64,000 nt of DNA, taken from assembly GCF_036711975.1 (NCBI RefSeq), contig NC_091972.1, positions 20,031,001 through 20,095,000 of the forward strand, in the 5' to 3' direction. The stretch is from Onthophagus taurus. Lineage: Eukaryota > Arthropoda > Insecta > Coleoptera > Scarabaeidae. Position 1 is the first letter of the stretch, and each line of letters begins with the position of its first letter. The position numbers and the translations under genes are program-made. Below the pieces are notes generated by a model. It had not been told where the DNA came from and ran no database searches. It was given only the letters and a program-made list of their open reading frames with translations. This document shows positions 453 through 30,606 of the stretch, one piece after another.

Positions 453-1164
453 TTATTCACATCCTGCATCAGCTGGCCAATCACAAACATTGAGTTCGGT
501 GTTGAAATGAAGTCCATCTGGGCATGGCATATCATAGGCAACTCCCCAATCGCATTGGCAGAATCTCCCACAAGTTTCAGGGTGGGCAAAGTAATGAGGG
601 AAATCACCATTTTCTTTTGGGCATGGATCATTTGGGCATCTGCCTTGACCGTTTCCATCGCCACTTTCGTCACTTTCAGAGCTAGAACTAGAGCTGGAGC
701 TACCGGAATCTTCTTCAACATTGCCATCTCCTCCCTCAACTTCTTCTTCTTCATCACCTCCATCAACTACTTCTTCATCATCATCCCCTTCATTGCTTTC
801 GCTGCTGCTACTGTTGCTGCTTCCACTGTCATTTCCACTGTCATCTCCACCATCACCGTTGCATCCAGCTTTATCTGGCCAATCACAGACTTCCAATTCT
901 TTGTTGAAATGTAAATCAGATGGGCAATCGAATTTGACGGGTTTTCCCCAATCGCATTTGTAAAAGACGGTGCAATCTTTATCATCTACCAAGAAATCAA
1001 CTTTATCCGGATTCATGTCGTCGGGGCATTCACCAACTGGGTCGGCTTTGGCATATTGGAAAGCCAATACAAAGGTGGCACATAACAAGAATGTAGCTAA
1101 AATATAAGATATAAAGTTATAACTAAGCTTATTATATTGAAATTGTTATGGACTCACCTTTCAT
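453..1164 (-). CDS. Two-domain chitin-binding protein (CBM14), copy 1
   Basis: This is a secreted protein of 216 aa with two exons: coding 1158-1164 (ATG AAA G), a 61-bp GT-AG intron, and 453-1096. The start is chosen because the spliced frame gives a clean signal peptide of about 20 residues (MKATFLLCATFVLAFQYAKA). Domain 1 (residues 26-81) has the peritrophin-A spacing C-x17-C-x5-C-x9-C-x12-C-x7-C, with aromatics around the third cysteine (FYKCDW). Residues 82-155 are a Ser/Asp/Glu/Gly linker, the longest in the family here. Domain 2 (156-215) has the same core plus two extra cysteines (C-x4-C before it and CGRFCQC inside). CBM14 domains bind chitin, so a role in peritrophic matrix, cuticle or another chitinous matrix is likely, but the tissue cannot be told. 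The linker signature EEEEVEGGDG and the upstream DNA match copy 6, its mirror partner. Confidence 0.9.
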
Positions 1165-1230
1165 TTTGATATTTAGTCAAATTGCTGTGATGAACCAATT
1201 CGAATAATAATTTAAGTATGCGGCGGCCCT

Positions 1231-1238
1231 ATTTTATA
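1231..1238 (-). promoter_or_regulatory. TATA box of copy 1
   Basis: TATAAAAT in the sequence GCTATAAAATAGGGCCGCCG lies 67 bp upstream of the ATG. The same string occurs upstream of copy 6. Confidence 0.6.
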
Positions 1239-2045
1239 GCATAAATAAAAAAAAATGCCGATAATTTAATTATAAAGAACAAATTACTATAATTGGTAAT
1301 TAATTAGTGTTGATAAAAGCGAGATAATTAATAATAGCCAATAGATATTTATCTATTGCTACCAACACAATAGTTCAATACATATAGTGTATTAAAAGTT
1401 CATACAAAAAATATTAATGGTTATCGATCAATGAAACCGGATATAATATGATTTCTTTTCGCTTTGATGCAAGGCATACGTGCATTATATGAAAATACAT
1501 TTTGGGGGGTTAGGTTAGGCCGTCTTATAATCAAAGTAACTTCTAAGTTACCTATATTATTTTACATAAAATTTTAAAAATAGCCAGTATAATAGGGCCG
1601 TTAAGGTCAATCGATTAGAAAGACCGTCTTTCAAAAAATCGATAATCTATATTAAATTAGACGGATTAGTAACGTTTTCAATAAAAAAAAATACTGAACG
1701 GCCCTATTTAGTGTTTCAATATGGTTATGCAGAAAAATTGCTTCCTTCAAAATGGTTAGGGACTAAGAAACGAAATATTTTTAGGTTATAAAGAAATGCT
1801 TGAGGTTAAGTTTAGCCAAATTATAAGTTTCCAGGGCTTTTAATTTATTTTATATAAATTGTTTGACGCATCTCGAGAATGTATTCTCGAGATACTTCAA
1901 AAATTATTCTCTCCTAAACAGTTAGGAATTAAGAAATGAAATATTTTGAGGATACAAAATTATAAACTTCTGCTATTCTTTCCTTCCACTTCTTCCTAGG
2001 TCTTCACCTCTTTTTCTTATCCATATTCTTTGCTTCAAATACCGT
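1239..2045. repeat. Upstream flank of copy 1, inverted duplicate of the copy 6 flank
   Basis: No gene is seen. The conserved motif AATTAATTAGTGTTGATA lies near 1300 and ATCAATGAAACCGGAT near 1428. The reverse complement of 1240-2045 corresponds to about 28440-29570, including a palindromic CTCGAGA-containing stretch near 1870. At 1970-2045 it also includes the tail of an RTE/R1-like LINE 3' remnant that lies near 28440-28520. Confidence 0.7.
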
Positions 2046-2430
2046 TTTTTTAAGTCAAATACCAAGTTTTTCAAGACGATGAATTTCCATCCTCATTTGT
2101 CACTAACCGCAAGATTAGACATGACACTTTAAAGAGATGATTTATCAGAGAAGGCAGAGACAAATCAAAAACTATCAAACAGTCATGATGAAAGACTTAA
2201 GCGTAGCTAATAATAACTCTTTTGCAAAGTCGACGAATGACGAAAGTAGTTCATGCACATCCAAGATATAAGTCACAATACATTGCTAGATCGGCTGTTG
2301 CGTGCTCGACCTTGAGTATTCCCTCAACATCTTCTTCACTAGAAGCTATTCCAAAGGCCATGCCGAGAATGCTACAAAAAGGAAGAAAGAAAGGTAAAAC
2401 ACATATTTACTGATTATTTCCTGAAAAGGA
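2045..2430 (+). mobile_element. pogo/Tigger-like transposon fragment, C-terminal end
   Basis: The plus strand carries decayed codons for the end of a pogo/Tigger (DDE_1) transposase. The recognisable part is KAMPRMLQKGRKKGKTHIY just before 2413, matching the basic Lys/Arg-rich tail in the element at 12360-13990. The catalytic region is absent. Stretches around 2120-2300 match 12540-12720 and 24000-24180 in inverse orientation, so this is the third copy of one family in the window. Confidence 0.6.
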
Positions 2431-2499
2431 CATAATTGGATATGAAAAAAAAGTGGCAAAAGAAAAGCAATTTCCACAAAGCTGGTCACTCAGTAACCA

Positions 2500-4035
2500 C
2501 TGAATGCTTTTTGATAGGATGCAAGTAGCTCTCAAATTGATAGAGACTTACTTGGCGTGACGAACAAAGACTTTCTGTGAATCCTAAGAAGACAGAGTTG
2601 ACTCTTTTCACACGGATTAGGAAGTTTGGCAAGCCCAGAATGCCATCCCTTGCTAATATTCCATTGGCGTTGTCAAAAGACGTTAAATATCTGGGCATCA
2701 TACTTGACAATAAAATAACATGGAGAGCACACCTAGATAATAGAGTAAAAAAGGCGTACGTTCTATTCGGTCAATGCGGAAGGGCTATAGGTAAGGCATG
2801 GTGTTTGTCACCCAAAAATGCCCTCTGGATTATACGGCTGTAATCCGACCTATGCTTACATATGGTGCAGTAGTATGGTGGTCAAAGACCTTATAGTCTA
2901 CATCCACTGATGTACTTAATAAAGTACAGAGACTTGCGTGTTTCTATGTTACAGGTGCGCTGCGGACTACCCCCACTGCAACCATGGAAAAATGTTGAAC
3001 CTAACGCCACTTCATTTGTTCATTCAAGAGATGGCACTGGTGACTATGATTCGACTGCGGGCAGCATGAATTCTAATGGGTGAGAGTGATAGTAAAAATG
3101 CCATTCTCTGGAATGAAATGGTGGACTACTCACCAATTGTAGAATGTAAAACGGACTTCACATCCCTACAACACATTTTTACGAAGAAATATCTCACCCA
3201 TCCAAGTTCCACTGAAATAGAGGTAAAAAACAGCCTTAAAATCTACACTGATGGTTGAAGTAGACGGGAAGGAGCTGGAGCCGGACTCTTCTCGTACGAT
3301 CTCCGACTCCACGTATATGAACCTCTAGGTAAAAGTACCACCGTCATACAGGCGGAGTTAATCGCCATACAAATTGTCGCTGACGTTATTGTCAGATCCA
3401 ACTTGGTAGGTAAGACTTTCACAATATACACTGACAGTAGACAAACTATTTTAGCCCTGAGTAGAATAACAATTAGCTCAGGACTTGTTATGGGTTGTTG
3501 TCTGACATTGGAGAATGCCGCAGTGCATAACTGTGTTAAACTTCAATGGATAAAAGAACAGTCGACCTGTTCAGGTAACAAGCACGCTGATAGGTTTACC
3601 AAAAGGGCTGCCAAGCGAGCGCCATGTTCGCTTGAACCGATAATGCTGCGTCCTTATCAATTCAGATTTAGATAATAAAAGATTTTACCCACAAAAAATT
3701 TATGAACTGGTGGGATAGGGTTGAGGGCTGCCATCTGTCTAAGGAAGTATTCCATTATCCCTCAGCAGAGGGAGCCTTGTCTTTTGTAAGGCTTGGTAGA
3801 AACGCTCTACGAACTGTAACGGGACTCGTCACAGGTCACTGTAAGGTAAACAAGCATCTTTATAACCTTAAGCTTGCTGTTAGTCCTCTCTATCGCCTCT
3901 GTGAAGACCTCAGAATGAGAGACTTCGGAGAGTAATGGCCGAGCACAGATGGGATCAGGAACACACCTCTGAGCTGTATCCTAGCCTTCGGAAATTCCTT
4001 AAGGTGAAGCATACCCTCCCCTTTCCTACATACAT
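2500..4035 (+). mobile_element. LINE fragment (I/LOA/jockey-like), RT end plus RNase H
   Basis: Broken frames read on the plus strand as the end of a reverse transcriptase. They show NPKKTELTLFTR, then KYLGIILDNKITWRAHLD (2577-2843), then a shifted frame reading like PMLTYGAVVWW near 2850-2880. An RNase H domain follows, with IYTDG near 3240, a QAELIAIQ stretch near 3350, YTDSRQTILAL near 3430 and a KHADRFTKRAAK-like segment near 3580. At least four frame changes or stops interrupt it. The 5' half (endonuclease, YADD) is missing and the fragment ends in a simple ACATACAT tail. RNase H in the ORF fits the I, LOA and related LINE clades; the exact clade is not certain. Confidence 0.75.
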
Positions 4036-4700
4036 ACATACAAGCAATTTCCAAAAAATTAAATGAAAGGAGTGTCCCCACGACAGTTCCTCAGATGAAG
4101 ATAATAAAAAAGTCCAAAACAGTTCCAGCAGTGAACAAGGAACCCTATTAGAAAATATAAAATAGGAATGTGGAAGAGAAGATTAAAGAGTATTTTGTCC
4201 AAGGTAATTTAAATAAATGCGATTTTGCTTTGATAAAATTTCTTAGAAAAAACGTGTTTATTTTTATGTTGGTGAAATTACTAACGTCTTGTCTATTTCC
4301 AAGTTTCAAGCAAAATATTATAAAAGGATTGGTAATACCAGAAGATTTATGCCGGATCGAAATGACGAGTATAATGTCCTCATAAAAGACATTATTGGAA
4401 AACTTCCACATCCGGTTATTCAAGGTTCATTGACAAGACAAGCAATTATATTTGAAGTATATTTTCATAATACAATGTTAAATAATTCTTAATGTTAATG
4501 TCATGTTGTATCTAAAAGCTATTAAAGATTATATTCTAGCTTATTCCTTCGTATAAATACCTAGCTATTGCTTTTGTCGTATTAATACCTGAAGCCTACC
4601 CCATTCCATTTTATTTTGTTTAATAATTTATTTCCATTTCTATATCGTTTTTGTAAAACGTCAACATTGTGTACAAAGGTCTAAAGAATTTGTTAGTACA
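4036..4700. other. Unassigned intergenic DNA
   Basis: A short open stretch near 4080-4180 reads as Ser/Glu-rich (SSSDEDNKK), and two short overlapping frames run through 4170-4492. None has a recognisable motif and no start or splice site stands out. The part from about 4600 is the downstream flank of copy 2 and matches 23785-23850 inverted. Confidence 0.4.
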
Positions 4701-4702
4701 TA

Positions 4703-6145
4703 CAGTGTGTCCCCGGATTGTGTCCCCGTAAGGTATAATTGACGATAAATTTTTGAATTCAAATTCCATCTTTTGCAATTAACGTCTGGATGTCATAAAA
4801 CGAAATATAACCAAGTTTTACGTCAAATATCCTCAAAGTACCAAAGTTAACGCAAGAAGTTTGTTAACCGCTGTAGGTAAAGTGGTCTTTCTGAGCAATG
4901 TACAACAAAAATTGATTAAAATAAAATGTTTGTTATGTTAAATTATAGCGATATGCCGAATTTTATTAATTTAGCATATAAAAGAAAAAATGAGTTTTTT
5001 CTTGAAAATTTTTTCTAATATTCCGTTTTACAATAAAAACAAATGACCTGAGTGAACTAACAATTATCATTTGATAGCTTAGCTTTAGCCTATTGTCAAA
5101 TATTAATTGATCATGTTTACATTACAACGTAAAATATTTATAGTGCAGTGCTATGGATTGGGGAACATCAGTTACAATGCAGTTTTAAGGCAATTTGAGG
5201 AAAAATTTGGATTGAAATGGAAAATCTGGAAGAGAGTTGTTAAAATATTTTCGGAAACGAGCAATGTGGAAAATAAAAGGAAGGAAAAAAGCTTTTAGAT
5301 GAACATGATGCGGGGTCGATTGTTGCAGTAACGAACGCAATGGATTATGGTAAGGTGTCGTATTATAAACCAAAATTTAACCACACTATCGAATTAGGTG
5401 ATGAAGCAAAACGTTTAGATTATTCTATGTGGCTTGGGTACAACATTTTGAAAGACAGAACTTTTTTAAAAAACATAAAAACATTGCGGCCCACATTCGA
5501 CCATTTTAATTAGAAATTATTTAAATACGTTATTTCGAAAAAAATGGATTGGTAGATATGATCCGCAACCATAGTTGCCAAGAAGTCCGGATTTATTTAT
5601 TACGGATTTTTATTTTTGAGGTTATGTAAAACAAAAAGTGTACACTGAAAATTTGAATAACAATTTAGACCATTGAAAACAAAAAAAATGAAACTGCTAT
5701 TAGAGAAATTCCGTTGGACCATATTAGAAAAAGTTATAAACAATGTCGGAAAAGGGCTGAATTATGTGTTAGTGTTGGTGGTATGATTGAATAAGCTTTT
5801 ATGTTAATTTAGTTTAGATCGAAAATGTTTTGTTAATCTTATGATTTAAAAATTTGCATTTTGATTTTATATCCTACATTAATAAAATTCGGCATATCGC
5901 TATAATTTAACATAATAAACATTTTATCTTAATCAACTTTTGTTGTACATTGCTCAGAAAGGCCACTTTACCTGCAACAGTTAACAAACTTCTTGCGTTA
6001 ACTTTGGTACTTTGAGGACATTTGACATAACACTTGGTTACATTTCGTTTTATGTCATCCAGACTTTAATTGCAAAAGATGGAATTTGAATTCCAAAATT
6101 TATCGTCAATTATACCTTACGGGGACACAATCCGGGGACACACTG
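4703..6145 (+). mobile_element. mariner-like DNA transposon with 268-bp inverted ends
   Basis: The element is 1443 bp with terminal inverted repeats 4703-4970 and 5878-6145, starting CAGTGTGTCCCCGG and flanked by TA duplications at 4701-4702 and 6146-6147. Inside, 5107-5298 encodes an N-terminal helix-turn-helix (FIVQCYGLGNISYNAVLRQF) of the type that begins many insect mariner transposases. A broken 3' part near 5576-5645 reads PRSPDLFITDFYF, then a stop, then GYVKQKVY, the region around the third catalytic acid. Most of the catalytic core is deleted, so the element is not autonomous. The inverted paralogous flank of copy 5 (around 23785) holds the same site without the element. Confidence 0.88.
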
Positions 6146-6342
6146 TATATTTGAAAATTTTAAAAAATTGTGTTTTTAGAAAAAAAAATTATATTTCAAA
6201 AATGTCCCATTGTAGAACTCTCCGCTAATAATGAATAGATCAAATGCTTTAAGTGAATAATTATAAACAAAAACTAATTATTAATGCATAATTAAATTTT
6301 ATTTGTGTTCAGTTAAGTAACATTTTTATGATAATAAGTATA

Positions 6343-7038
6343 TTATTCACATCCTGCATCAGCTGGCCAATCGCAAACATTAAGGTCGGTGTTGAAATGA
6401 AGACCATCTGGGCATGGCATATCATAGGCTACTCCCCAGTCGCATTGGCAGAATCTACCACAGGTTTCTGGGTGGGCAAAGTAATGAGGGAAATCACCAT
6501 TTTCTTTTGGGCATGGATCATTTGGGCATTTGCCTTGACCGTTTCCATCGCTACTTTCGTTACTTTCGGAGCTAGAACTAGAGCTGGAGCTAGAGGAATC
6601 TTCTTCAACATTGTCATCTCCTCCCTCAACTTCTTCATCATCACCTCCTTCAACTACTTCTTCATCGTCCCCTTCATCGCTTTCACTGCTGCTACTGCTG
6701 CTGCTACTTCCACCGTCATCTCCACCATCACCGTTGCATCCAGCTTTATCGGGCCAATCACAGACTTCCAATTCTTTGTTGAAATGTAAATCAGATGGGC
6801 AATCGAATTTGACGGGTTTTCCCCAATCGCATTTGTAGAATACGGTGCAATCTTCATCATCTACCAAGAAATCAACTTTTGCCGGGTTCATGTCCTCGGG
6901 GCATTCACCAACTGGGTCGGCTTTGGCATATTGGAAAGCCAATACAAAGGTGACACATAACAAGAATGTAACTACAATATAAAAGTAAAGTTTTAGCTAA
7001 GGCTATTAAATTAAAATCGTTATAAACTTACCTTTCAT
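6343..7038 (-). CDS. Two-domain chitin-binding protein (CBM14), copy 2
   Basis: The spliced protein is 211 aa from exons 7032-7038 and 6343-6971 with a 60-bp GT-AG intron. The signal peptide begins MKVTFLLCVTF (Val at residue 9, shared only with copy 3). Domain 1 spans 26-81, the acidic Ser-rich linker 82-150, and the eight-cysteine domain 151-210. Diagnostic features are EDMNPAK and DDEDC in domain 1, the linker end ESNESSDGNGQGKC, and FNTDLNV in domain 2. The last two are otherwise found only in copy 5, its mirror partner. Its downstream DNA holds the 1443-bp mariner. The frame is intact and function is expected to match copy 1. Confidence 0.9.
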
Positions 7039-7103
7039 TTTGATATGTAGTCAAATTGCTGTTATCGAACAATTCGAATAATAATTTAGCGTGCGAAAAC
7101 CCT

Positions 7104-7111
7104 GTTTTATA
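7104..7111 (-). promoter_or_regulatory. TATA box of copy 2
   Basis: TATAAAAC followed by AGGG lies 66 bp upstream of the ATG, within sequence shared with copy 5. Confidence 0.6.
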
Positions 7112-8650
7112 GTATAAATCGAAAAAAATGCCGTTAATTTAATTATAAATAACAAATAACTATAATTGTTAATTAATTAGTTTTGATAAAAGTAGGGTAA
7201 CTAATAAGAGACACTAGATATTAATCTGCTATCGACACAATAGTTTAATACTTATAGAATAATAAAACTTTAAAGAAAAAATATGAATGGTTATCAATCA
7301 ATGAAACCGGATGTAATATGATTTTGTTAGGTTGTTTTGAAAAAATTGTTCGCTCTGATTACATATTTTTAGCTTTTCACAAAAACTTCCAATCGCAACT
7401 GACCAATGTAAAATTTAACGAGGATGATACTTAAAAATCTCTGTGTTAAAATACCCCGCAAGAAGAATTTCATCACTCACACGATTGAACTAGGGCGAGG
7501 CAGCGTTTGAGCAAAGACCCCATCTTGTAGAAATCAGTTTTGTAAATAAGTCCCTACGATATCTACAGGTGCAAAATATATTTAATGATGAGTTTTGACT
7601 GTGTAGGTGGACTTTTCGTGGGGTTTCTACTATCCGTGTCCAATATTAGGCTTTTCAATTTCAAAATCGATATTTTCGCAACCATTCAATAACACAAAAG
7701 CAGTAATTTGTTGTGATTACTGAACATTTCTACGTAACATATATAGCTCGTTAAATGAAAAAAGTACCCGATTTTTTTATCGTGCCTAGCATCTTTTACC
7801 ACTTTGCGATTTTTTTCCCGAATACTATCTGATGAAAAAATTTCAATTTTGAACGAATTGTAGACTGGTGTAGTAGTTTTAGCCAAAATACCTCATACAC
7901 ATTGCGTATGTCGAATCGCATTCTCAAAACACCTGGATTTATATTTTGTATTGGACCAAATATTTTGGCATAAAAAATTGTTTAACTATTTTTAGTTTTT
8001 CCAGAAAATGTTAAATAAGGTTAATTTTGTTTTGAACTGTTAATCATTTCCTGAAAATAATATTGGGTAAAGTTAGTTTTCTTATGAAATGTTAATCATT
8101 CCGGCACACAATGTTATGTAAATTGAAAATCGAAAATTGTTCCAACATCGATTTTACAATACGAGTTAAAGTCAGTGTTATACGTAGCAGTCGACTGCTA
8201 GCGCAATTGGACCTCCATGGTGAAGAAATCCTTTACTGTGATGACAGTACTGCTAGGGGGTTTTTAAAACGTCGGCTCTTTGATAATTAAAGGTAATATT
8301 ATAAATATAACGCTAATTGGACGTGAACAGGCGACACGTATTATAAAACTTTTATTTAAAAAAAATAAATTAATGTGCATGAGTAAACACGAGAAAAGAA
8401 GAAAATAAGATTCTCGGTTACGCACTTATCGAATAGATCTATTTTTGACATCGAAACGACTCTTTTAACCGATTTATTAACAAAAGATGGGAACTTCCAA
8501 AATTAACGTACAAATAATTTCTATTCTTGCAAGATATGGTTGTCATATACGTTTTACATTGAACTTAATTATCAGATAATTGATTTTTTATAACTGCATG
8601 TGAAGTACTCGTTTTAACTTTAACTAATATTTTTAAATATTTCTAAAATA
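7112..8650. other. Intergenic region between copies 2 and 3
   Basis: The first 220 bp carry the shared upstream motifs (AATTAATTAGTTTTGATA near 7170 and ATCAATGAAACCGGAT near 7297). From about 7340 to 8500 the DNA has no mirrored counterpart near copy 5 and is probably a decayed insertion; a short frame at 7686-7886 has no recognisable motif. From about 8500 it is the downstream flank of copy 3, which matches 19850-19990 inverted. Confidence 0.5.
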
Positions 8651-8730
8651 AAATTCAAAGGAAAGTTCTTATTGCATCATAATATTTACATTTATTTAAA
8701 TAACATAATCGTTTTCACAAATCAAATAAA

Positions 8731-9403
8731 TTATTCACAGCCTGCATCTGCTGGCCAATCACAAACATTGAGTTTGGTGTTGAAATGAAGTCCATCTGGG
8801 CATGGCATATCATAGGCAACTCCCCAATCGCATTGGCAGAATCTACCACAGGTTTCAGGGTGGGCAAAGTAATGAGGGAAATCACCATTTTCTTTTGGGC
8901 ATGGATCATTTGGGCATCTGCCTTCACCGTTTCCATCGCCACTTTCGTCACTTTCGGAGCTAGAACTAGAGCTGGAGCTACCGGAATCTTCTTCAACATT
9001 GTCATCTCCTCCTTCAACTACTTCTTCATCGTCCCCTTCATCGCTTTCACTGCTGCTACTGCTGCTGCTACTTCCACCATCATCTCCACCATCACCGTTG
9101 CATCCAGCTTTATCTGGCCAATCACAGACTTCCAATTCTTTGTTGAAATGTAAACCGGATGGGCAATCGAATTTGACTGGTTTTCCCCAGTCGCATTTGT
9201 AAAAGACGGTGCAATCTCCATCATCTACCAAGAAATCAACTTTTGCCGGGTTCATGTCCTCGGGGCATTCACCAACTGGGTCGGCTTTGGCATATTGGAA
9301 AGCCAATACAAAGGTGACACATAACAAGAATGTAACTAAAATATAAAAAATACAGTTTTAGCTAAGGCTATTAAAATAAAATCGTTATAAACTTACCTTT
9401 CAT
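8731..9403 (-). CDS. Two-domain chitin-binding protein (CBM14), copy 3
   Basis: The spliced protein is 203 aa from exons 9397-9403 and 8731-9335, intron 61 bp. The linker (82-142) is short because one DDEEVEGG block present in copies 2 and 4 is missing. Domain 1 carries EDMNPAK, DDGDC and PSGLHF; domain 2 (143-202) carries FNTKLNV, and the linker ends GEGRC instead of GQGRC. DDGDC and PSGLHF are shared with copy 4. Flanks on both sides (8500-10430) match those of copy 4 inverted, so the two are mirror partners. The frame is open throughout. Confidence 0.9.
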
Positions 9404-9468
9404 TTTGATGTTTAGCCAAATTGCTGTAATAGAACAATTCGAATAATAATTGAGGAAGGTACTACCTG

Positions 9469-9476
9469 ATTTTATA
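9469..9476 (-). promoter_or_regulatory. TATA box of copy 3
   Basis: TATAAAATCAGGTAGTACC is the second promoter type of the family. It is shared with copies 4 and 7-11 and lies 66 bp upstream of the ATG. Confidence 0.6.
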
Positions 9477-10450
9477 GCAATATTAAACGCGAAAAAATTC
9501 TAGATGATAACTGCCAATTAATTAGTATTGATAGGTATAGATATTAATCTTTACTATCAATCTACTAGTTAAATATATATGGAGTGTCAAAAATACAATT
9601 ATGAATTGTTAGAAATAATCGTATCAATGAAATTTTCTAATATCAATTTATTATTTCAATAACAATGATTACTAGGATAAGATTTCACTGTCAAAAGTAA
9701 TTTCCTAAAGATCTCTCTAATTTCCTTGTTTCTAATTTCAATTTCCGTTGATTTAAAAGTAGTTGAAAAAACTGAGTATAGACACCAATCTACCATTAAC
9801 AGTGCTCTTGACAACCTATAATAAACAAAACTAACCTACTCCAATCCACCTGCGGAAAGGAATCTTGGAATAGGTCAGGTTTGTTTCAAATATAACAGGC
9901 CATCCCAAACCAAACCAAACCTGACGTACAGTAGCAGGGTGAAGAAGTATTGCATAAAGTACCAGTTTTGATTTGGGCTGCGCCGTCGACTGAAATTTTA
10001 GTACAGAAACTTCATATTTATGCGTATTGCATTCGATAGGTAGTTGATCGGATAGCACCAGGTTTTGTTTAGTAGTTTTTACACAGTTTTTCACTCTTGA
10101 TTGCAGTTTTTACACTTCATTCCATTATTTTATTCCATAAATAATTTCAATTCCACCTAAAATATTAAATCCATACATGGTTATGTCATTATGATAAAAT
10201 TAGACGTTACGCCTAATTTGTATTAAAAACGGTTTTTATTTATGTAGTAGTGTGGTCATTTGTAGAAGCTAAATAATAATTTTGCAATATAAACATTATC
10301 ATTATTTCAAATTTGGGCACACTTGTTGGTGAATAGTCCACTAAGGGATTCCTGCAAGGTGAGCTCAATAACTAATGGTGGTTGTGAAGAAGTACAACAC
10401 CAAGCCAACTACAATAACGTCTATTTGACATTATTTATATGTTAACATTT
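9477..10450. repeat. Upstream arm of copy 3, inverted duplicate of the copy 4 arm
   Basis: The reverse complement of 9404-10430 follows 18410-19130 in blocks. Examples are the ACTAGTAGATTGATAGTAAA stretch near the promoter, the GGAATCTTGGAATAGGTCAGG block near 9860, and the GTGGTTGTGAAGAAGT block near 10378. No gene is visible. Confidence 0.75.
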
Positions 10451-19829: not shown

Positions 19830-20369
19830 TATATCTGATTTATGAAAATTGTTATATTATTTAAATAAATGTAAATATGGTTATTGAATAAGAACGTTGT
19901 TGATTGAATTTTATTTGAAAAATATTAGTTAAAGTTAAAAGAAGTACTTCACTTGCAATTATAAAAACAATTATATGATTCAACAAATGGAACAAATTCA
20001 TTTGTTATATAGTAATCGTGAGGAATTACGGACGTCCACATTTGTTATTTAGATATCAGTTAATGATATCCAGAATCTTGTTTTCTTTTTTTCTTTTAAT
20101 CGTGCACATTAATTTCTCTTTTAATAACAAAAATATCACAATACCATTCGCCTGTTCCATTCTAATTAGCGCCATATTTAAAATATTAGTTTTAACTGGC
20201 AGAGCACTTTTGACTTTACTGTGATGATAACTCGTCATAGTAAAGGCGTCCTCCACCACGATGGTTCAATTGCCATAGCAGACTGTTACGTATACATATA
20301 CACCGACTGTAATTCGTATCATGATATTGAGGTTGTTGAAATTTTCGCGGCGTCATTTTTTGTCCTGTT
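19830..20369. other. Downstream flank of copy 4 and unassigned DNA
   Basis: AAATAAA at about 19862 can serve for polyadenylation. Similarity to the copy 3 flank ends near 19990. The rest up to 20369 shows no recognisable gene. Confidence 0.4.
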
Positions 20370-20770
20370 GCAGAAAATAAAACTAACCTTACTGACACAA
20401 GACCTAGGTTGTTCATCTGCCGAACTAGTATACGGTCAACCACTTACGTTTCCTGGAGAATTTTTTATTAATAATCAATACCCTTTGGAATCTGATCCAT
20501 TGCTATCTAGTTTAATGAAACATTATCTTCTTTGAAACCACTATACACAGTTTTTCATTCAAAACAAAAACCATTTATTCAATTCAAAATTTGCCTTTGT
20601 CAAAATTAATGTGATTCAACCCTCTTTAACTCCAAGATATGAAAGCCCATTTAAAGTAATAAAAAAATTTGCGAAATATTTTGTAATTTTCAAAAACAAC
20701 CAGGAACTAACTGTTAACATCAACAATCTTAAACCAGCATTCCTTTTAAAAGAAAACTCAACATGTCACC
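20370..20770 (+). mobile_element. Gypsy-like LTR retrotransposon fossil, integrase end
   Basis: The plus strand carries recognisable codons from the end of a gypsy-type Pol polyprotein, the integrase C-terminal region. Only a small piece is present; it is clearly broken, no LTR was recognised, and it looks old. Confidence 0.6.
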
Positions 20771-21419
20771 AAAGCGATAAAATCAATTTTGTTTCAATTT
20801 TTAAGTACGATTTTTTTTTACAACCATCTTCCTCTTTGATTAGTCTTTATAGGAGGGAAAGTGGCTGTAGCATGCTGTGTACACGACATATAACATCATG
20901 TTACAATACAAAATCATTATTATTTTATTAACATTTTATTATTATCTTATTATATTGTGAACCAGATACCGACACTTACCTACCATTATGTCACGGAATG
21001 ATTAACATTTCAAAACAAAACTAACCTTACCTAACATTCCTTGATACAAATAATGAGCGTTTTATTCTATACAAAAATATTCACAATTTTATAGCAATAT
21101 ACATATACAGGGTGAGTCAATAATGCAGCGACGAAAGATAGTGGCTTTACTGTTGAAAATATAAAAAAATGTTTTTATGTTATCATATATTACCATCAAA
21201 GCTGCATCCATTAAAATTATTTTCAGCTATACTGGGTGTTTTACTATTCGAGGACCGTACTCAACTTAATATATGTATTTGTAGATATATTTTTTTACAT
21301 GCGCTGATTAGCTGTCTTAAATGCTACAACTGCATATATTGTTTTCAATTTTTGAATGCAAGGCAGCATTATTATTAAATATTGAAGATTGCAATTTGGC
21401 ATGTCGATAAATAAAGCTT

Positions 21420-21845
21420 GGGTGTTTCGATCACCGTTAATACTATTGGATGTTATTATACAGAGTGTTTACCAGAAGCAATTAATTTATGCAATGTTTG
21501 GTGAGCCATAACTTTGTTATTTTAAATGGAACACCCTATATTTTTCTGAAGCATCGTAAGGCACAATCTTTGCCGAACGTCTAGTAAAACATCTTCTAAA
21601 AGAGCCTGCAGTTGATTTTCTAAAAAATTCAAATAAGATCCTACCCAGATAATTCCTGCCCAGACATTTAAGCACCATCGATCTTGGTGGTCTACTAATC
21701 GTCTAAAATTAGAATTGACAGTATCGTAGAAATGAAGATTATGGCGAGTAATTTTTAAGGAATGTCGCCTCATCGGTGAATAAAAGATAATCAACAAAAT
21801 ATATTCTTGTTGAACATTTTTTAATGCCCATTCCAAAAATTCTAG
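21420..21845 (-). mobile_element. mariner-like transposase fragment
   Basis: The minus strand reads LKITRHNLHFYD, then RWCLNVWAGIIW, then FLENQLQALLEDVLLDVRQR, the stretch between the first and second catalytic acids of insect mariner-like transposases. Both catalytic regions are lost. A CAGGGTGAGTCAATAATGC string at about 21110 resembles an element end, and another such end lies at 31346. Confidence 0.6.
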
Positions 21846-21879
21846 TCTTTTTTTGAAATCTTGTGCATCAAGTTCTTGT

Positions 21880-22390
21880 ACAAACGTTAGGATGTCAAAA
21901 ATTACTCCTCTCCCTAATTTCCCTGCAGCACTCTCCCAAGATCCTGCAATGCAGTCCTTTTTCTATCCTTTCCTCGTACTTCACTGCTCTTCTCCCAGCT
22001 TCCATCCACTGTAACCTCTTCCCTCACTATATAGGCTGAAGTCTCCCTTGCCAACTCCAATACCCATCTCCAATACCTTGTTTGTACATCCTCCAGTAAC
22101 CCTTGTTCTTTCCATTCTCATACTTATCCGCTTTCAAACATAACCTTTCTTTTTCCCACATCGCTTCTTCACTCTTCTTTCCATCGCCCTAACTTGCGAC
22201 CCAACTTTATTATCGTCCGAGAACCCATATCCCAAATATGTATACTCCTTCACTTCCTCTATCTCTCTTCCCTCCTACATCCATTCTTCTCCCACCTTTG
22301 CAGAACTTCATGACCTTTGTCTTCTCGATGTTTACCTACAAGCCCTTTGCCTTAAAATATCTCTCGGACATATTTTCTTATTCTGTTCAA
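21880..22390 (-). mobile_element. LINE fragment (R1-like), minus strand
   Basis: The reverse complement reads NIEKTKVMKFCKGGRRM, then frames resembling EVKEYTYLGYGFSDDNK (two shifts), SQVRAMERRVKKA and WRWVLELARETSAYI, the post-catalytic part of an insect LINE polymerase common in arthropod genomes. Frequent shifts and stops show it is old. Confidence 0.55.
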
Positions 22391-22876
22391 AATTGAAACT
22401 TTTTCCTCAGCTAGTTTTTGAGAAAAAGAATCGCAAATATATTACAACATTTTTACGTCAAAAAATTAAAGATTACATTGCTGATGAGGTTTGATTTGTA
22501 CAGGTGTTTGTTTATACTCTGCCTCACCCTCGTTCAATCCTATGAATGATGAAGAAGAGTTGGATATTGGACATTTGCAATGAAACGATTAAATTCTTGC
22601 AGATATGTTAATGAAGCTCGAAGGAAATTTTAGTAAATAGCTAAAAATATTTAATTAATGCCAACAATTGGACAATATAATTTTCGTTGATCGATGACAA
22701 TTCACATTTTTCTTTAGTTTTAAAATTCTATAAGTATTGAACTATTGTGTCGGTAGCAGATTAAAACCTATTGGCTGTTATTAATTATTATCTTACTTTA
22801 ATCAAAACTAATTAATTACCACTTATAGTAATTTGTTATTTAGAATTAAATTATCGTCATTTTTTTGGGTTTATGC

Positions 22877-22884
22877 TATAAAAC
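22877..22884 (+). promoter_or_regulatory. TATA box of copy 5
   Basis: TATAAAACAGGG, as in copy 2, lies 67 bp upstream of the ATG. The preceding 180 bp match the copy 2 upstream flank inverted. Confidence 0.6.
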
Positions 22885-22950
22885 AGGGTTGCCGCACACT
22901 TAAATTATTATTCGAATTGTTCGTTTACAGCAATTTGACTACATATCAAA

Positions 22951-23624
22951 ATGAAAGGTAAGTTTATAACGATTTTAATTTAATAGACTTAGCTACAACT
23001 TTATTTTTATATTTTAGTTACATTCTTGTTATGTGCCACCCTTGTATTGGCTTTCCAATATGCCAAAGCCGACGAGTTGGTGAATGTCCCGACGACATGA
23101 ACCCGGATAAAGTTGATTTCTTGGTAGATGATAAAGATTGCACCGTCTTCTACAAATGCGATTGGGGAAAACCCGTCAAATTCGATTGCCCATCTGATTT
23201 ACATTTCAACAAAGAATTGGAAGTCTGTGATTGGCCCGATAAAGCTGGATGCAACGGTGATGGTGGAGATGACAGTGGAAGTAGCAGCAGCAGTAGCAGT
23301 AGCGAAAGCGATGAAGGGGATGACGATGAAGAAGTAGTTGAAGGAGGAGATGACAATGTTGAAGAAGATTCCAGTAGCTCCAGCTCTAGTTCTAGCTCCG
23401 AAAGTAACGAAAGTAGCGATGGAAACGGTCAAGGCAAATGCCCAAATGATCCGTGCCCAAAAGAAAATGGTGATTTCCCTCATTACTTTGCCCACCCAGA
23501 AACCTGTGGTAGATTCTGCCAATGCGACTGGGGAGTTGCCTATGATATGCCATGCCCAGATGGTCTTCATTTCAACACCGACCTTAATGTTTGCGATTGG
23601 CCAGCTGATGCAGGATGTGAATAA
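22951..23624 (+). pseudogene. Two-domain chitin-binding gene, copy 5, frameshifted at the signal-peptide junction
   Basis: Exon 1 (22951-22957), a 60-bp intron and exon 2 (23018-23624) are all preserved with good splice sites and a TATA box. Near 23074 the usual GCC GAC CCA GTT GGT has become GCC GAC GA GTT GGT, one base short. The signal-peptide frame therefore runs into a TGA after about ten codons, while the rest of the gene stays fully open in the second frame. The domains, linker (ESNESSDGNGQGKC) and FNTDLNV match copy 2. The mature region has no other damage, so the loss is recent, a sequencing error, or a polymorphism. The alternative ATG at 23031 would give a mature protein with no proper signal peptide. 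Confidence 0.8.
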
Positions 23625-23784
23625 TATACTTATTATCATAAAAATGTTACTTATCTGAACACAAATAAAATTTAATTATGCATTAATAATTTGTTTTTGT
23701 TAATAATCATTCAATTAAAGCATTTGATCTAGTTTGAAATATAATTCTTTTTCTAAAAGCACAATGTTTTAAAATTTCCAAATA

Positions 23785-23850
23785 TACTAACAGGTTCCTT
23801 AGACTTTTGTATACAATGTTTACAATGAAATGGGGTAGGATTCTTTTTCT
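23785..23850. repeat. Downstream flank of copy 5 with empty mariner site
   Basis: Reverse complemented, this reads GTTAGTATATTTGGAAATTT where the copy 2 flank is interrupted by the 1443-bp mariner. Only one TA is present. Confidence 0.8.
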
Positions 23851-23879
23851 TTTCATATTTAATTATGTTCTTTTCAGGA

Positions 23880-24900
23880 CATAATCAGTAAATACGCGTT
23901 TTACCTTTTTTTCTTTCTTATTGTACTATTCTCGGCACGGACTTTGGAAATGGTCGAAGAGCTTCTACTGAAGAAGAAGTTAAGGCAATACTCCAGGTCC
24001 AGCTTGCAGCAGCCGATCCAGCAATGCATTGTGACTTGGATATGCATGCACTACTTTCTTTATTCGTCGACTTTGCAAAAGAGTTACAGTTAGCTACGCT
24101 TAAGTCTTTTTCATCTTGACTGTTTGATAGTTTTTGGTTTGTCTGCGTTCTTTGGTAAATCACCTGTCTGAAGTGTCATGTCTAATCACGGTTAGACAAT
24201 AGTAATGTTAACTTCTCTTTCATCGGATGTAACATTTCCTACTTGCTTAACACCTTTTGATGATAAAATTTTGGGTGGTGTGTGAACAGTGGAATTACCA
24301 GTATCATCTAAATTTTAAATTTTACTGTGAGGAAATTGGTATCTAATCATTACATCTTGAATATTATTGCAAAAACATGACACAGTCTGCCGATTAATGC
24401 TGGTAGCATGGGAAAGACACGTCGCCTCTGGTTTTCGTAAACTCAAATTTGTATACCGTTTTCTTAACCCTCTTAACCACATTTCTCCGGCGGTCTTGTT
24501 TTCGGTCCAACTATTTGGTATGTTAATGTGGTTTTCATGAGCAAATTCAAACGCGAGTTTCTCTTTTTGTGAGACCATGGTGAAATCGAGCGGCATGTAA
24601 ATAATAATCGACTAACTGGAGTTCTTCGTTTAAAAAAAACACTTTATGGGTACCTATCATTTTTTGCTATGTAAACATAAGCTATATTATTTGGATTTCC
24701 CTGTGCATTATTCTCAATTTGTAACCATTCGAAATATTTTAACTGCGGTTCGCACTTTTGCATTATTATATGTAACTTCTTTCAAAATTCCCTTCAATGC
24801 GCCAACATCTAACGCAGCCATGTTATATCTTGCTTACTTCTAGGCATTTTTCTGGTAAGAATAACGATAGCTACTACTTACATTATTACCAAAAATATAT
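23880..24900 (-). mobile_element. pogo/Tigger-like transposon, internally deleted
   Basis: This is the same family as 12360-13990. The frame 24315-24596 encodes MVSQKEKLAFEFAHENHINI, then NSWTENKTAGEMWLRGLRKR and YTNLSLRKPEATCLSHATSI, the DNA-binding half. 23918-24163 encodes the tail. Most of the catalytic domain between them is missing, so it is non-autonomous. Confidence 0.75.
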
Positions 24901-25540
24901 AACAACATATGAATATACAATATATATTATACACCATCCTATAAGCACTGGCTGCCAACATTCGTGAAAATTGTTAAAGTTCGTTTATATACTAAGTATA
25001 AGATGGCAATATTATCGCCAATGTCCCTACGTACTACGTATTCTACTAAAACATATAAAATATCTTATCTATTCTATTCTTATAATGTGTTTCACAACTT
25101 TGATACTTTGGTATACTGAAATGTCATTAAGAATTATTTGCTACATTTTCCATATGTAAGAGTGGCTTCTGGTTTTATGTAGTGTTATCTTTACTATGTT
25201 TTAATTATGACTATTCCATTATCATAGATGGCAGTATTGATACTTTGTTGCTTTTTACTCTTTCATTGCATAAATGATTGTTGTTATCAGGCAGAAAATT
25301 TTCCATATAATTAATCTATTAGTAAGGTCCTTTTAAATAAACCAGAAAGTTTCATTTCCTAATTCGTAACTTTTTCGAAAAGAATTGAATTCAATCAGTG
25401 ATATTTTTACATTCATACAAAATAAATAAAGAAATTTTTATTAAGGAACAAAGGATATAAGAAGTATTATCATATGAAGTCTTTTAGGTTACGCCGAAAA
25501 TATAAGTTTTGTTTCAACATTTTTCCAATCCAACCCAACA
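24901..25540. other. Unassigned intergenic DNA
   Basis: There is no recognisable gene, TATA-plus-intron signature or inverted repeat in this AT-rich stretch. Confidence 0.35.
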
Positions 25541-25559
25541 ATTATTATACATTAAACTA

Positions 25560-27600
25560 AAACTAGAACTAACACTAGACCTAAAATCTTTCGGGTTAAG
25601 CCGTGCGTTTTTTGAAAAAATGTTTGACGTTTCGGATGCCATGTTGCAACCTTCTTCAGAAACAAGTTCGAAGTGACGAATTCGTTTTAAAATTTGACAA
25701 TAAATACATGAAAAGGTAATTAATAACTAATTAGTGTCTAATTGTCAACTAAGTTGTTTTGTCAAATCCGGGTGGAGAAGGCTTCGTTGAGTTCACCAAC
25801 ATCTTCCATGTGCGGCTGAGTTTTCAGCCATCTTCTCTATTCATGTTATTCCCATGTTGATGAATCTCTATCGCCTCTCTCGTCAATCTTTGGAAGTAAT
25901 GCCCGTTTCTTGCTAGCACTTTGGTTTTTTCGAACTCTATGCTGTGTCCTCCTTTGTGGCAATGCTCTGCGACTGCAGATTGTTGGATCTTCCTTAGTCG
26001 GACGTCTCTTTCGTGTTCTTTGATGCGGCACTCGATGTTACGTCCAGTTTGGCCAACGTAATATTTCGAGCAACTGCAAGATAGCCGGTAGACTCCAGCT
26101 CCCTTTAATGGGGTTAGTTTGTCTTTGGCTATCGGAAGAGCGTTTTGTATTTTGCTGACCGTACCGTATCGTACCACGATATCATTCTTCTTCAGACGCC
26201 TCGCAATTCGGTCCGTCACACCTGAAACGTAAGGAAGGCAGATAAAACCGGCTGGTGTCGTACTTACCGAGTCATCCTTCTGTTTATGTGGTTTGGTGGA
26301 TCGTCGGATATCTCTCATCGTGTAGCCGTTCTTCTGCAGCACATCTTCTAGGAATCTTTCTTCTTTTCTTAGGTTCTCTTTATCGCATATCCTCTCTGCT
26401 CGCTGAAATAAGGCTTGAATCATGGACCTCTTCTGTTGTGGGTGGTGGTGGGATGAAGCCTGCAGGTACCTATTCGTATGTGTCTTCTTTCGATATACTC
26501 CCAGTTTCATGCCCCCGTCTGTTTTCCTAGTGACTAACACATCCAGGAATGGCAACTGTTTTGCATTTTCTGTTTCCATGGTAAATTTTATCATGGGGTG
26601 CTGTGAATTGAGGTGGTCTAGAAATTCCTGGAGTTGCTCTTTTCCATGTTGCCAGATCACGAAAGTGTCATCGACGTAACGGAGCCATAGCTTCGGTTTC
26701 CAAGGACTCTTCTTTAGCGCCTCCTCTTCAAACATCTCCATGTAAAAATTGGCTATCACAGGAGACAGAGGTGATCCCATGGCTGCTCCTTCGCATTGCT
26801 CGTAGAATTCCCCCTTCCAGCTGAAATATGTCGACGATAGGCAGTATTCCACTAGTCCTGGGACATACTTGGGCAAACCCTCCGGGATAAGTTTCTGGCG
26901 AAGACCATCCACGGCATCTTTGACTGGTACTCTGGTGAATAGAGATTCCACTGTTTTACCTGTAAAAGGAGACAGAATCTTGGAAAGGTGTTTTGCTAGT
27001 TGATAGGTGGGAGAATTTATGGCACTGACAATAGGACGTAGTGGGACGTCTGGTTTATGGATTTTGGGTAATCCATATATCCTTGCTGGTACTGGAGCCT
27101 GTACGAATAAGCTTTTTTGTTGATCTGCTGGGATTTCTGTGAATTTTACCAGTTCTTTCATCTTCCTTACTATCATCTCGGTTGTGTCCTTTTTTATTTT
27201 CTTATAGGTGGCTGTGTCCAAAAGGCTCTTGATCTTGTCGTCGTATTCTTTTCTGTCCATAACCACGGTCGCATTCCCCTTGTCCGCTGGTAGGATGATA
27301 ATGTCTGGTTTTTCCCTTATCGTTCGTAGTGCTCTTCTTTTGTTTATTGTTAAGTTTGATTTTGGTGGCATTGCTGTTTTAAGCACTCTCGCTATGTCTT
27401 GACGAATTTCCTCTGCTTTCACTGCAGGTATTCTGCGAATAGCCACTTCCACTTCACATATAATTTCTTCTTTGGGAACCCTCTTTGGAGCGACTGCATA
27501 ATTTAAGCCTTTGGCGAGTACTTTAGTTTCCTCCTCTGTTAATGGGACGCTTGATCGGTTGATAACGACTCTTTCAATTGGCAAATCGAATAAGAAGATC
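25560..27600 (-). mobile_element. Penelope-like element with RT and GIY-YIG endonuclease
   Basis: A 586-codon frame (25824-27584) is open on the minus strand. It reads ILPADKGNATVVMDRKEYDD, then ARIYGLPKIHKP and LRPIVSAINSP, then GAAMGSPLSPVIANFY and LRYVDDTFVIW (RT motifs of the Penelope type). Near the C-terminus GVYRLSCSCSKYYVGQTGR is the GIY-YIG nuclease. Such elements move by target-primed reverse transcription. The terminal DNA at 25585-25680 has a CTGAAGA-stem-GAAACGTC arrangement like the hammerhead-ribozyme region of these elements. It looks young by its open frame but is not a full-length member, so activity should not be assumed. Confidence 0.85.
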
Positions 27601-28180
27601 GAATCGAATAAGAAGAATAAGGAAATCAGACAACGTACACTGTTAAAAATGTTACGGAGTGATTTAACTCTTTCTAAAAGTGGTAAATTTAACTAAATTC
27701 TAGTAGCTTGCAACTCTTTTCAGAGTCAAAATAACTTTGTTAAGATGTTAAAAATACGGTGTTAATCTGTTTATTTCTCACAGTGTAACTTTACACTTTC
27801 CAACTCTGTATTTTGATTAAAAGTACAATACAAATAATTCGGTGTAAACTAACTAAATTTAAAATTGTATCTACCCCGCTATGTAGTTCTCGTTGTGGTC
27901 ACATGACCTATCACGTGATTCTTCCACAGTATTGGTAATTTTTAGTCGAAACAAGTCGCAGCGTGCACAAACGTTATTAAATCGTCGTAGGTACAATTTT
28001 TAAATATTTTCTTTATTTTTATTAAAATGTATGATTGGTGCATTCGTGTAAAGTAGGACCGAAAGAAGTGGGTTAAGTTAAGTGAGCAAGAATTGTCCAA
28101 ACAATTGATTGATGAAGCGGGTAAGTATACTTTAACAGTATATATCATACTCTAAACAGAACAATTTTTGGGAAGAAGGA
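27601..28180. other. Unassigned DNA between Penelope-like element and LINE remnant
   Basis: No gene was recognised. A short exon-like stretch (about 28020-28122, ending at a GTAAGT donor-like site) reads KKWVKLSEQELSKQLIDEAG, but no partner exon was found. Confidence 0.3.
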
Positions 28181-28184
28181 GATA

Positions 28185-28670
28185 GATAAAAAGATAAAAT
28201 TGAAAGTGTACAACGCTGTAGCAGTCCCAATATTAACATAAGACAATGAATCATGGACACTCCAAGATAAACAAGAAGGAAAGATCACAGCAATGGAAAT
28301 GAAATTAATAAACAAAGTAGGATAGGATAAGGAATGATGAAATAAGACTGGGAGTAGATCAAGAGGAGATAATCAGCAAAATAGAGAGAAAGCAACTAAA
28401 CTGGTACGCCCACGTAATTAGAATGGAACATAACACAATAGTAAAAAAAGTATTTGAAGCAAAGAATATGGATAAGAAAAAGAGGGGAAAACCTAGGAAG
28501 AAGTGAGAGGAAAGAATAGCAGAAGTTGGGAAGAAGAGAGGGAAGACTCTAGAAGATATAAAGGAGTTAACCAGGAATTAGTGTAAGAGGTGGATGGAGG
28601 ATTAGGAAAATGGTTTATCCGACGCCATCAGGCATAAGAATCAGGAGAAGAAGAAGATGATATAAAATAA
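28185..28670 (+). mobile_element. LINE 3' remnant (RTE/R1-like)
   Basis: Plus-strand frames read KVYNAVAVPIL and ESWTLQDKQEGKITAMEMKL, then a GRPRKKW-like basic tail near 28480. This is the familiar end of insect endonuclease-RT LINEs. Multiple shifts are present. Its last part is duplicated, inverted, at 1970-2045. Confidence 0.6.
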
Positions 28671-29574
28671 ATTATTTTAAAGCGTACTGTTTTTATACAA
28701 GTTGGATAGCAAACATTTTTTTTGTAACCACACTATCAGCAAGCATAAAATTAAATTGGCGATTTTTAAAATTCCCTATGAAGGATAGTGGGCAAACCTT
28801 AAGTTTATAATTTTGTAGCCTCAAAATATTTAATTTCTTAATTCCTAATTGTTTAGGAGAGAATAATTTTTGACTTCAAATACATTCTCGAGATGCGCCA
28901 AACTCAACAAGAATTTTTTTAAATTTTATATAAAATAAATTAACCGTCCTGGAAACTTATAATTTGGCTAAACTTAATCTCAAATATTTCTTTCTAACCT
29001 CACAATATTTCGTTTCTTAATTCCTAACTATTGCCACATTGAAACACTAAATTATACTGGCTATTTTTTAAATTTTGTATAAAATAATATGGGTAACTTA
29101 GAAGTTACTCAAATTATAAGATGCTCTAACCTAACCTCACACGTTCGCTTACAGCACCAAAAAGTTTTGTATTGATTTTCATATTTCATATCGACTGTTG
29201 TTTAAGAAATATCGCCGTTTTTATAAAGTAATTCCTTTGTATTTGGCTGCCAACATCATTTTGAGAAATAATGGAAGAAGAATATAATAACTCAAATGTT
29301 TTATTTAAAAATGTATTTTCAAGTGATGCACGTATGCCTCTTGCATCAAAGCGAAAAAAAATCATATTATATCCGGTTTCATTGATCGATAACCATTAAT
29401 ATTTTTTGTATGAACTTTGTATACACTATATGTATTGAACTATTGTGTTGGTAGCAATAGATTAATATCTAGTGGCTATTATTAATTATCTCGCTTTTAT
29501 CAACACTAATTAATTAGCAATTATAGCAATTTGTTCTTTATAATTAAATTATCGGTATTTTTTTTGATTTATGC
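28671..29574. repeat. Upstream flank of copy 6, inverted duplicate of the copy 1 flank
   Basis: No gene is seen. The stretch corresponds to 1239-1960 in reverse complement, including a CATTCTCGAGATGCGCCAAAC block and the TCCGGTTTCATTGATCGATAA block. Confidence 0.7.
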
Positions 29575-29582
29575 TATAAAAT
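29575..29582 (+). promoter_or_regulatory. TATA box of copy 6
   Basis: TATAAAATAGGGCCGCCG, as in copy 1, lies 67 bp upstream of the ATG. Confidence 0.6.
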
Positions 29583-29648
29583 AGGGCCGCCGCATACTTA
29601 AATTATTATTTGAATTGTTTCATCACAGCAATTTGACTAAATATCAAA

Positions 29649-30351
29649 ATGAAAGGTGAGTCCATAACAATTTCAATATAATAAGCTTAGTTATAACTTT
29701 ATATTTTACATTTTAGCTACATTCTTGTTATGTGCCACCTTTGTATTGGCTTTCCAATATGCCAAAGCCGACCCAGTTGGTGAATGCCCCGACGACATGA
29801 ACCCGGATAAAGTTGATTTCTTGGTAGATGATGAAGATTGCACCGTCTTTTACAAATGCGATTGGGGAAAACCCGTCAAATTCGATTGCCCATCTGATTT
29901 ACATTTCAACAAAGAATTGGAAGTCTGTGATTGGCCAGATAAAGCTGGATGCAACGGTGATGGTGGAGACGACAGTGGAAGCAGCAGCAGCAGTAGCAGC
30001 AGCGAAAGCAATGAAGGGGATGACGATGAAGAAGTAGTTGATGGAGGTGATGAAGAAGAAGAAGTTGAGGGAGGAGATGGCAATGTTGAAGAAGATTCCG
30101 GTAGCTCCAGCTCTAGTTCTAGCTCCGAAAGTGACGAAAGTGGCGATGGAAACGGTCAAGGCAGATGCCCAAATGATCCATGCCCAAAAGAAAATGGTGA
30201 TTTCCCTCATTACTTTGCCCACCCTGAAACTTGTGGCAGATTCTGCCAATGTGACTGGGGAGTAGCCTATGATATGCCGTGCCCAGATGGACTTCATTTC
30301 AACACCAAACTTAATGTTTGTGATTGGCCAGCTGATGCAGGCTGTGAATAA
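29649..30351 (+). CDS. Two-domain chitin-binding protein (CBM14), copy 6
   Basis: Exons 29649-29655 and 29717-30351 with a 61-bp intron (GTGAGT donor, as in copy 1) give 213 aa starting MKATF. Domain 1 is 26-81 (DDMNPDK, DDEDC). The linker is 82-152 with the EEEEVEGGDG signature shared only with copy 1. Domain 2 is 153-212 (FNTKLNV). It differs from copy 1 mainly by a shorter first Ser/Asn run. It is intact, and the closest relative by coding and upstream sequence is copy 1, although the two downstream flanks are not alike. Confidence 0.91.
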
Positions 30352-30603: not shown

Positions 30604-30606
30604 TAC

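Follow-up and report, generated by a model that had tools for sequence, protein, structure and literature searches.

A mirror-image block of two-domain CBM14 genes in Onthophagus taurus whose pairing extends through intergenic DNA and changes along the genes

The stretch of DNA analysed here (the window: 64,000 nucleotides of Onthophagus taurus contig NC_091972.1, 34% G+C) carries an array of genes for proteins with CBM14 (Peritrophin-A) chitin-binding domains, part of which is arranged as a mirror image. The window contains 13 full-length two-domain copies (counting gene 5, which has a 1-base deletion), one five-domain gene, several relics and open reading frames (ORFs) of transposons; a tRNA search and an Rfam search of the same 64 kb gave no match. 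Genes 1 (453-1164, ORF 453-1088), 2 (6343-7038, ORF 6343-6963) and 3 (8731-9403, ORF 8731-9327) lie on the minus strand and are followed on the plus strand by the five-domain gene (15499-16972, ORF 15590-16972) and then by genes 4 (19133-19829, ORF 19209-19829), 5 (22951-23624, ORF 23031-23624) and 6 (29649-30351, ORF 29725-30351). Both coordinates and strands agree with the order given in an earlier description made from the letters alone (the sequence-only reading), according to which copies 1-2-3 are reflected as 6-5-4 around the five-domain gene. Our comparison shows that the inverted homology runs collinearly through the DNA between the genes, that the five-domain gene is not its axis, and that the partner of a given gene differs between its segments.

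Judging from the sequence pattern, the listed ORFs of the two-domain genes represent a predicted second exon, upstream of which all 13 copies have a predicted 7-base exon 1 (ATGAAAG) and an intron of 60-62 bases; in gene 1 this exon would lie at 1158-1164, with an intron of 61 bp. For the five-domain gene a 10-base exon 1 and a 61-bp intron (15509-15569) can be predicted, the phase being that of the two-domain genes. The deletion in gene 5 adjoins the end of the signal peptide (23026-23091), and this copy is probably a pseudogene or else contains a sequence error. The Pfam scan took in three of the 14 genes, to which the remaining ones were aligned: CBM_14 (PF01607) was matched above the gathering score by two stretches each in gene 1 (E 1.9e-25) and gene 3 (E 5.9e-27), and by five stretches in the five-domain ORF (E 2.8e-56). 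The N-terminal domain of gene 3 and the first domain (D1) of the five-domain protein contain the six cysteines of the CBM14 pattern; the C-terminal domain of gene 3 and D2-D4 have eight and D5 has nine, core included. The N-terminal domain of gene 3 resembles D1 (67%), its C-terminal domain resembles D5 (66%), and D2-D4 are 90-95% identical to one another, the mark of an internal domain amplification in the five-domain protein as far as its sequence can tell; the two gene types therefore probably have a common ancestor. The linker between the two domains is acidic and Ser-rich (21-26 D+E, 1 K+R and 20 S per 61-74 residues in genes 1, 3 and 8), and that of the five-domain protein is Thr-rich. 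From the domain homology and a signal-peptide-like start, the products are probably secreted chitin-binding matrix proteins. Viral contigs scanned with the five-domain protein or with gene 3 as query yielded no match, and a scan of genome contigs with the five-domain protein yielded three pattern matches and no relatives, hence no outgroup.

To describe the mirror itself, we compared the window with itself. The homologous non-coding flanks claimed for the three pairs were all recovered, together with further matches: 1509-2052/29135-28442 for pair 1/6, 4660-4701 and 6145-7306/23823-22682 for pair 2/5, 8571-9969/19979-18555 for pair 3/4, as well as 7344-8414/22669-20072 and the innermost match 10307-10427/18537-18417, all of them inverted. 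Single-copy intergenic matches thus stand between the gene pairs in inverted order, and the pair midpoints converge as had been described (15.4, 15.0 and 14.3 kb). Once the units of the 13 genes and four relics had been masked, the comparison of positions 1-15,589 with 16,973-31,000 gave 15 minus-strand matches, of which 13 fall on one decreasing collinear chain, so that the anti-diagonal holding the three pairs, which a self dot-plot had been expected to reveal, is present. None of 200,000 random orders reached a chain of 13, and left arms simulated by a Markov model gave no match to the real right arm in 100 simulations. Two members of the chain (6145-6177 and 9748-9969) are continuations of the masked gene units next to them. 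Only two plus-strand matches were found between the masked arms, both part of a further copy in the spacer discussed below, while the masked remainder of the window (31-64 kb, in three blocks) had no match to the left arm and three short ones to the right arm. We therefore delimit a left arm at 382-10427 and a right arm at 18417-30435, which show the collinear inverted homology through non-coding DNA that characterizes an inverted (palindromic) segmental duplication.

Over fifteen segments, some of them beside genes, the arms differ at 257 of 1,957 aligned bases (13.1%). This bears on the possibility that one locus was assembled twice, once in inverted orientation, or that two haplotypes were joined, to which the exact 6,440-bp tandem repeat found elsewhere in the window lends some colour, as it may itself be such an artefact. 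The arms are 13% apart and unlike in their insertions; this divergence lies far above sequencing error and exceeds the difference typical of haplotypes, and on these grounds we reject an assembly duplicate as hardly credible. The anchors between the genes likewise bear on the proposal that the nesting arose by chance from three separate events, each a local inversion or the inverted duplication of a gene. The pairs do differ in divergence (Jukes-Cantor, JC, distances of the promoters 0.037, 0.141 and 0.073 for 1/6, 2/5 and 3/4), and the window holds another inverted pair, genes 11 and 12; such a history, however, leaves unexplained why single-copy DNA between the genes lies in order on the same anti-diagonal, and the collinear anchors largely refute it, leaving it very improbable. 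Some observations sit less well with a single clean duplication. The divergence along the ladder of matches is uneven (4.7% to 27.1%), so that room must be left for later conversion or for more than one event; one weak minus-strand match of 36 bp (1906-1941/25385-25350) lies off the chain; and the edge of the window cuts the left side short.

The two arms have been altered by separate insertions. In the left arm only, a TA-flanked transposon with terminal inverted repeats (TIRs) of ~290 bp occupies 4703-6145, and the right arm is continuous at the corresponding site (23782-23787), with a 3-base difference at the join as read by eye. The right arm has a gap of 4,246 bp (24196-28441) opposite only 50 bp of the left arm, within which lies a minus-strand reverse-transcriptase ORF (25824-27584) that from its architecture we take to be Penelope-like. 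A portion of this gap (24,199-24,923) is found again in the centre of the mirror, and the gap is therefore not one clean insertion. Conversely, 2,207 bases of the left arm (2453-4659) stand opposite 22 bases of the right. The inner ends of the arms are sharp (10,427 and 18,417). Beside that of the right arm there is an AT palindrome (18374-18409) with a (TA)8+ run, unique in the window, that ends 11 bp from the arm, a suggestive coincidence that came to notice only in retrospect. On the outside, the pairing ends within gene 1/6, the outermost piece of the left arm (382-452) being 27% diverged. The earlier proposal of a large inverted duplication loosened by insertions thus finds good support in the single-copy intergenic anti-diagonal and the arm-specific insertions, although the gene order alone would fit a duplication followed by an inversion equally.

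Between the arms lies a spacer of 7,989 bp (10428-18416), and here our findings contradict the sequence-only reading, which had placed the five-domain gene at the centre. The innermost anchors have their midpoint at 14,422, and the gene is situated to the right of it, off-axis in the 8-kb spacer, which rules it out as the axis. Nor is it alone there, because the gene-1 locus is present in the spacer a third time, as a copy that lacks the gene (12336-15203, plus strand). This copy is defined by four collinear inverted matches (12336-12756/2470-2055, 14262-14314/418-366, 14647-14688/371-330 and 14904-15203/298-1; E 2e-120 to 4e-8), of which 14262-14314 is the counterpart of the 3' flank of gene 1; the two smallest are visible only without masking, since the gene 1 flank was masked in the chain analysis. 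A direct match also links 13273-14001 to 24199-24923 of the right arm. In the segment common to the three copies the divergence is 12.7% between left and right, 16.6% between left and centre and 14.7% between right and centre, and the outermost piece (1-298) is 5.4% diverged. One 43-bp match between centre and left (11872-11914/2557-2599) speaks against a simple third copy, as it has the wrong orientation for it. Searches for a gene remnant in the centre found none with tblastn of the family proteins (10,427-15,590, E up to 1), and four local alignments stood out little or not at all from 60 shuffles (highest score 31 vs a shuffle maximum of 29). The presence of this copy means that the region was duplicated more than once.

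In order to follow the pairing along the genes, we calculated neighbour-joining (NJ) trees with 300 bootstraps for each segment, and maximum likelihood (ML) trees for the promoter plus intron and for the 3' flank. The copy identical to gene 9 (9d) was left out of the trees, of the synonymous distances (dS) and of the mosaic tests, and gene 12, whose upstream region overlaps that of gene 11 and runs to the window end, was left out of the flank, pooled non-coding and ML trees and of the mosaic and Mantel tests. For the pooled non-coding DNA of 11 copies the three pairs were recovered as proposed (1/6 and 2/5 in 300 and 3/4 in 299 of 300 replicates). They also appear in the promoter tree (1/6 300, 2/5 261, 3/4 291), for the whole exon (280, 153 and 292, respectively) and in the ML tree of promoter plus intron (support 100, 68 and 96). 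Among the shorter segments, 1/6 is grouped by exon 1 plus intron (300), domain 1 (220) and the linker (268), 3/4 by exon 1 plus intron (255) and domain 1 (270), and 2/5 by domain 2 (277) and the 3' flank (300). The remaining values weigh against a fixed scheme of three pairs: 2/5 falls to 21 in exon 1 plus intron, to 1 in domain 1 and to 24 in the linker; 3/4 falls to 14 in the linker and is weak (81 in each case) in domain 2 and the 3' flank; and 1/6 falls to 13 in domain 2 and 50 in the 3' flank, where the ML tree leaves it ungrouped and supports 2/5 with 92 and 3/4 with 48. The three-pair scheme therefore holds for the flanks taken together and for some portions of the exons, but the partner changes along each gene.

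The change is best seen in the individual pairs. Genes 1 and 6 pair up to the linker; within the coding exon their pairing is lost at the second chitin-binding domain, and it is absent from the 3' flank as well: from domain 2 onward gene 6 resembles genes 8 and 9 more closely than it does gene 1 (P 5e-5). As gene 1 shifts correspondingly towards gene 4, either of the two could be the changed one. Genes 2 and 5 pair in the promoter, domain 2 and the 3' flank and not in the intron, domain 1 or linker, gene 5 being a mosaic in exon 2, with both ends like gene 2 and the first part of the exon like gene 9 (102 informative sites, P 5e-5, for a triplet picked after the tree had been inspected). Genes 3 and 4 pair in the promoter, intron and domain 1 and not in the linker. 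With partners that shift from segment to segment, a pairing based solely on protein signatures would be misleading; the five adduced for the original pairing are indeed confined, within the 13 two-domain copies, to the pairs stated, with the reservation that one of them (FNTDLNV) occurs also in the five-domain protein.

Promoters and exons have diverged in different ways. The promoters fall into class A (genes 1, 2, 5 and 6) and class B (genes 3, 4, 7, 8, 9 and 10), with mean distances of 0.146 and 0.116 within the classes and 0.375 between them; genes 11 and 12 were left out of these means, so that ten copies remain. The corresponding dS values are 0.176 and 0.173 within and 0.178 between the classes. 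Permutation of the class labels gave P 0.005 for the promoters, from which the classes had been drawn, and P 0.36 for dS, and the Mantel correlation was r 0.10 (P 0.21) for ten copies and r 0.13 (P 0.17) for eleven. Since dS ignores the classes that the promoters define, we infer that exons have been exchanged by ectopic gene conversion across the array, in both orientations. The dS of the mirror pairs lies somewhat below the class means (1/6 0.132, 2/5 0.071, 3/4 0.094), which tells against full homogenisation and means that some pairing signal survives in the exons; the pattern resembles that of concerted evolution limited to coding sequence, with dS uncoupled from the divergence of the flanks. 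Tests modelled on 3SEQ point to mosaic tracts (P 5e-5). Of 990 ordered triplets, 228 cleared an initial screen (P<0.01 with 300 permutations and a tract of >30 columns). The first 160 were then recalculated using 20,000 permutations, and at least 40 of them reached 5.0e-5, the lowest P that this number of permutations allows, the Bonferroni limit being 5.05e-5 for tests that are non-independent. A run-length test modelled on GENECONV, on the other hand, weighs against conversion, as none of 55 pairs passed Bonferroni correction (best P 0.002), and the mechanism is for this reason inferred from the distances and mosaics. The same negative result would be expected if purifying selection alone, without conversion, had kept exon divergence low, a possibility with which the low nonsynonymous distances (dN, means 0.011-0.021) also agree; purifying selection, however, does not account for a dS that fails to track promoter class or for the mosaic signals in the exons, and we consider it rather unlikely as the sole cause. 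The G+C content at third codon positions of the exons is 0.34-0.40.

To reconcile these observations, we favour, as a probable account, one inverted duplication followed by arm-specific insertions and exon exchange. A segment of ~10 kb, comprising three two-CBM14 genes together with their intervening DNA, would have been duplicated in inverted orientation, presumably in a single event, forming the arms 382-10427 and 30435-18417 around the 8-kb spacer with the five-domain gene; the left arm is presumably the older, because its genes have the same direction as genes 7-10. Later the TIR transposon would have entered the left arm and the stretch with the reverse-transcriptase ORF the right one, while exons, unlike promoters, would have kept exchanging by ectopic conversion with copies of the array in both orientations. 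One exchange or breakpoint within exon 2 of gene 1 or gene 6 would have made the outer ends of the arms unlike. The position of that end is also what one would expect if the three-gene block had been duplicated in direct tandem and one block then inverted between oppositely oriented copies, since recombination between copies would break there; this sequence of events yields the same gene order, and copies in opposite orientation are abundant in the window. It requires two events instead of one, and the inner ends (10427 and 18417) lie outside the gene units, the right one near the AT palindrome, for which reasons we regard it as unlikely. A broader scenario, which we put forward with considerable doubt, is that the three-gene mirror, the third copy, the 11/12 pair and the plus-strand relics all go back to fold-back duplications that were nucleated again and again in the neighbourhood of the five-domain gene, the gene-less copy then having a second mirror axis near 7.4 kb. 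If so, a minus-strand copy of the five-domain gene would be expected just left of the window, and exon conversion between opposite orientations would keep one protein near-constant while at least two promoter classes diverge.

The process itself is already known from other insect genes, and the locus would fit as a further case with exon conversion as in Amy and Hsp70. The palindromic duplicates Amy-p/Amy-d and Hsp70Aa/Ab of Drosophila have coding sequences homogenised by ectopic conversion, and in Amy the flanks evolve independently, according to the available part of the source (PMC3924832); unlike these, the beetle arms comprise three genes each with intergenic DNA, belong to a larger array of mixed orientation and are accompanied by a gene-less third copy. 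The clustered Hsp70 copies of Stratiomys singularior, which include an inverted pair and have homogenised coding sequences, 3' untranslated regions that diverge more, and large indels in the flanks, are similar in behaviour but are other genes, and the available text describes no multi-gene mirror block (PMC3071340). In Anopheles the CPR genes form tandem arrays of similar chitin-binding structural proteins for which concerted evolution has been proposed, with the R&R domain instead of CBM14 and, in the accessible portion of the paper, no mirror block (PMC2259329). The gut-expressed VCBP2/5 genes of amphioxus are a clustered family with a chitin-binding domain, inverted repeats (frequent in one haplotype) and proposed gene conversion; they differ in combining immunoglobulin-type V domains with one chitin-binding domain, and the part of the article at hand gives the inverted repeats as repeat density and not as a mirrored gene block (PMC2632668). 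The domain type is shared with the peritrophic matrix proteins (PMPs), CPAP1 and CPAP3 of Tribolium, cuticle or peritrophic matrix proteins with Peritrophin-A/CBM14 domains, among which, in the excerpted description, PMPs are recognized by expression in gut and not carcass, and CPAP1 proteins have one domain and CPAP3 proteins three (PMC3504105). With two or five domains and long linkers, acidic poly-Ser or Thr-rich, the genes of the window have neither the single ChtBD2 domain of CPAP1 nor the three N-terminal ChtBD2 domains with short conserved linkers of CPAP3/obstructors, and on domain number the family would be neither. Titles and abstract beginnings of the open-access literature searched described no mirror cluster of CBM14 genes. 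Separate dates can be obtained for the anchors between the genes, the promoters, the segments of the exons and the insertions of transposons, so that the locus allows the history of the mirror duplication to be told from later gene conversion, and its similar exons under diverged promoters offer a testable case of selection for protein dosage with regulatory divergence.

The rest of the window contains several additional features. Amid the minus-strand genes 7-11 there are four plus-strand gene relics (35172-35573, 39145-39601, 54510-54999 and 58265-58573), and a minus-strand relic lies near 61.6 kb (61543-61728). The exact tandem repeat mentioned above (39570-46009/46010-52449, 6,439/6,439 bases) includes gene 9 and a mariner-like ORF, which matches DDE_3 below the Pfam cut-off (E 0.0055); it may represent either a very recent duplication or an assembly artefact. 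It is followed at 52705-53692 by pieces of a reverse-transcriptase ORF, the second with a match to RVT_1 (E 5.9e-21) and the first without a Pfam match. The divergent genes 11 and 12 (62060-63985) form a second small mirror, being 92% alike over 782 bp, and the upstream motif CTATAAAA, absent from gene 12, is present in the 12 other copies.

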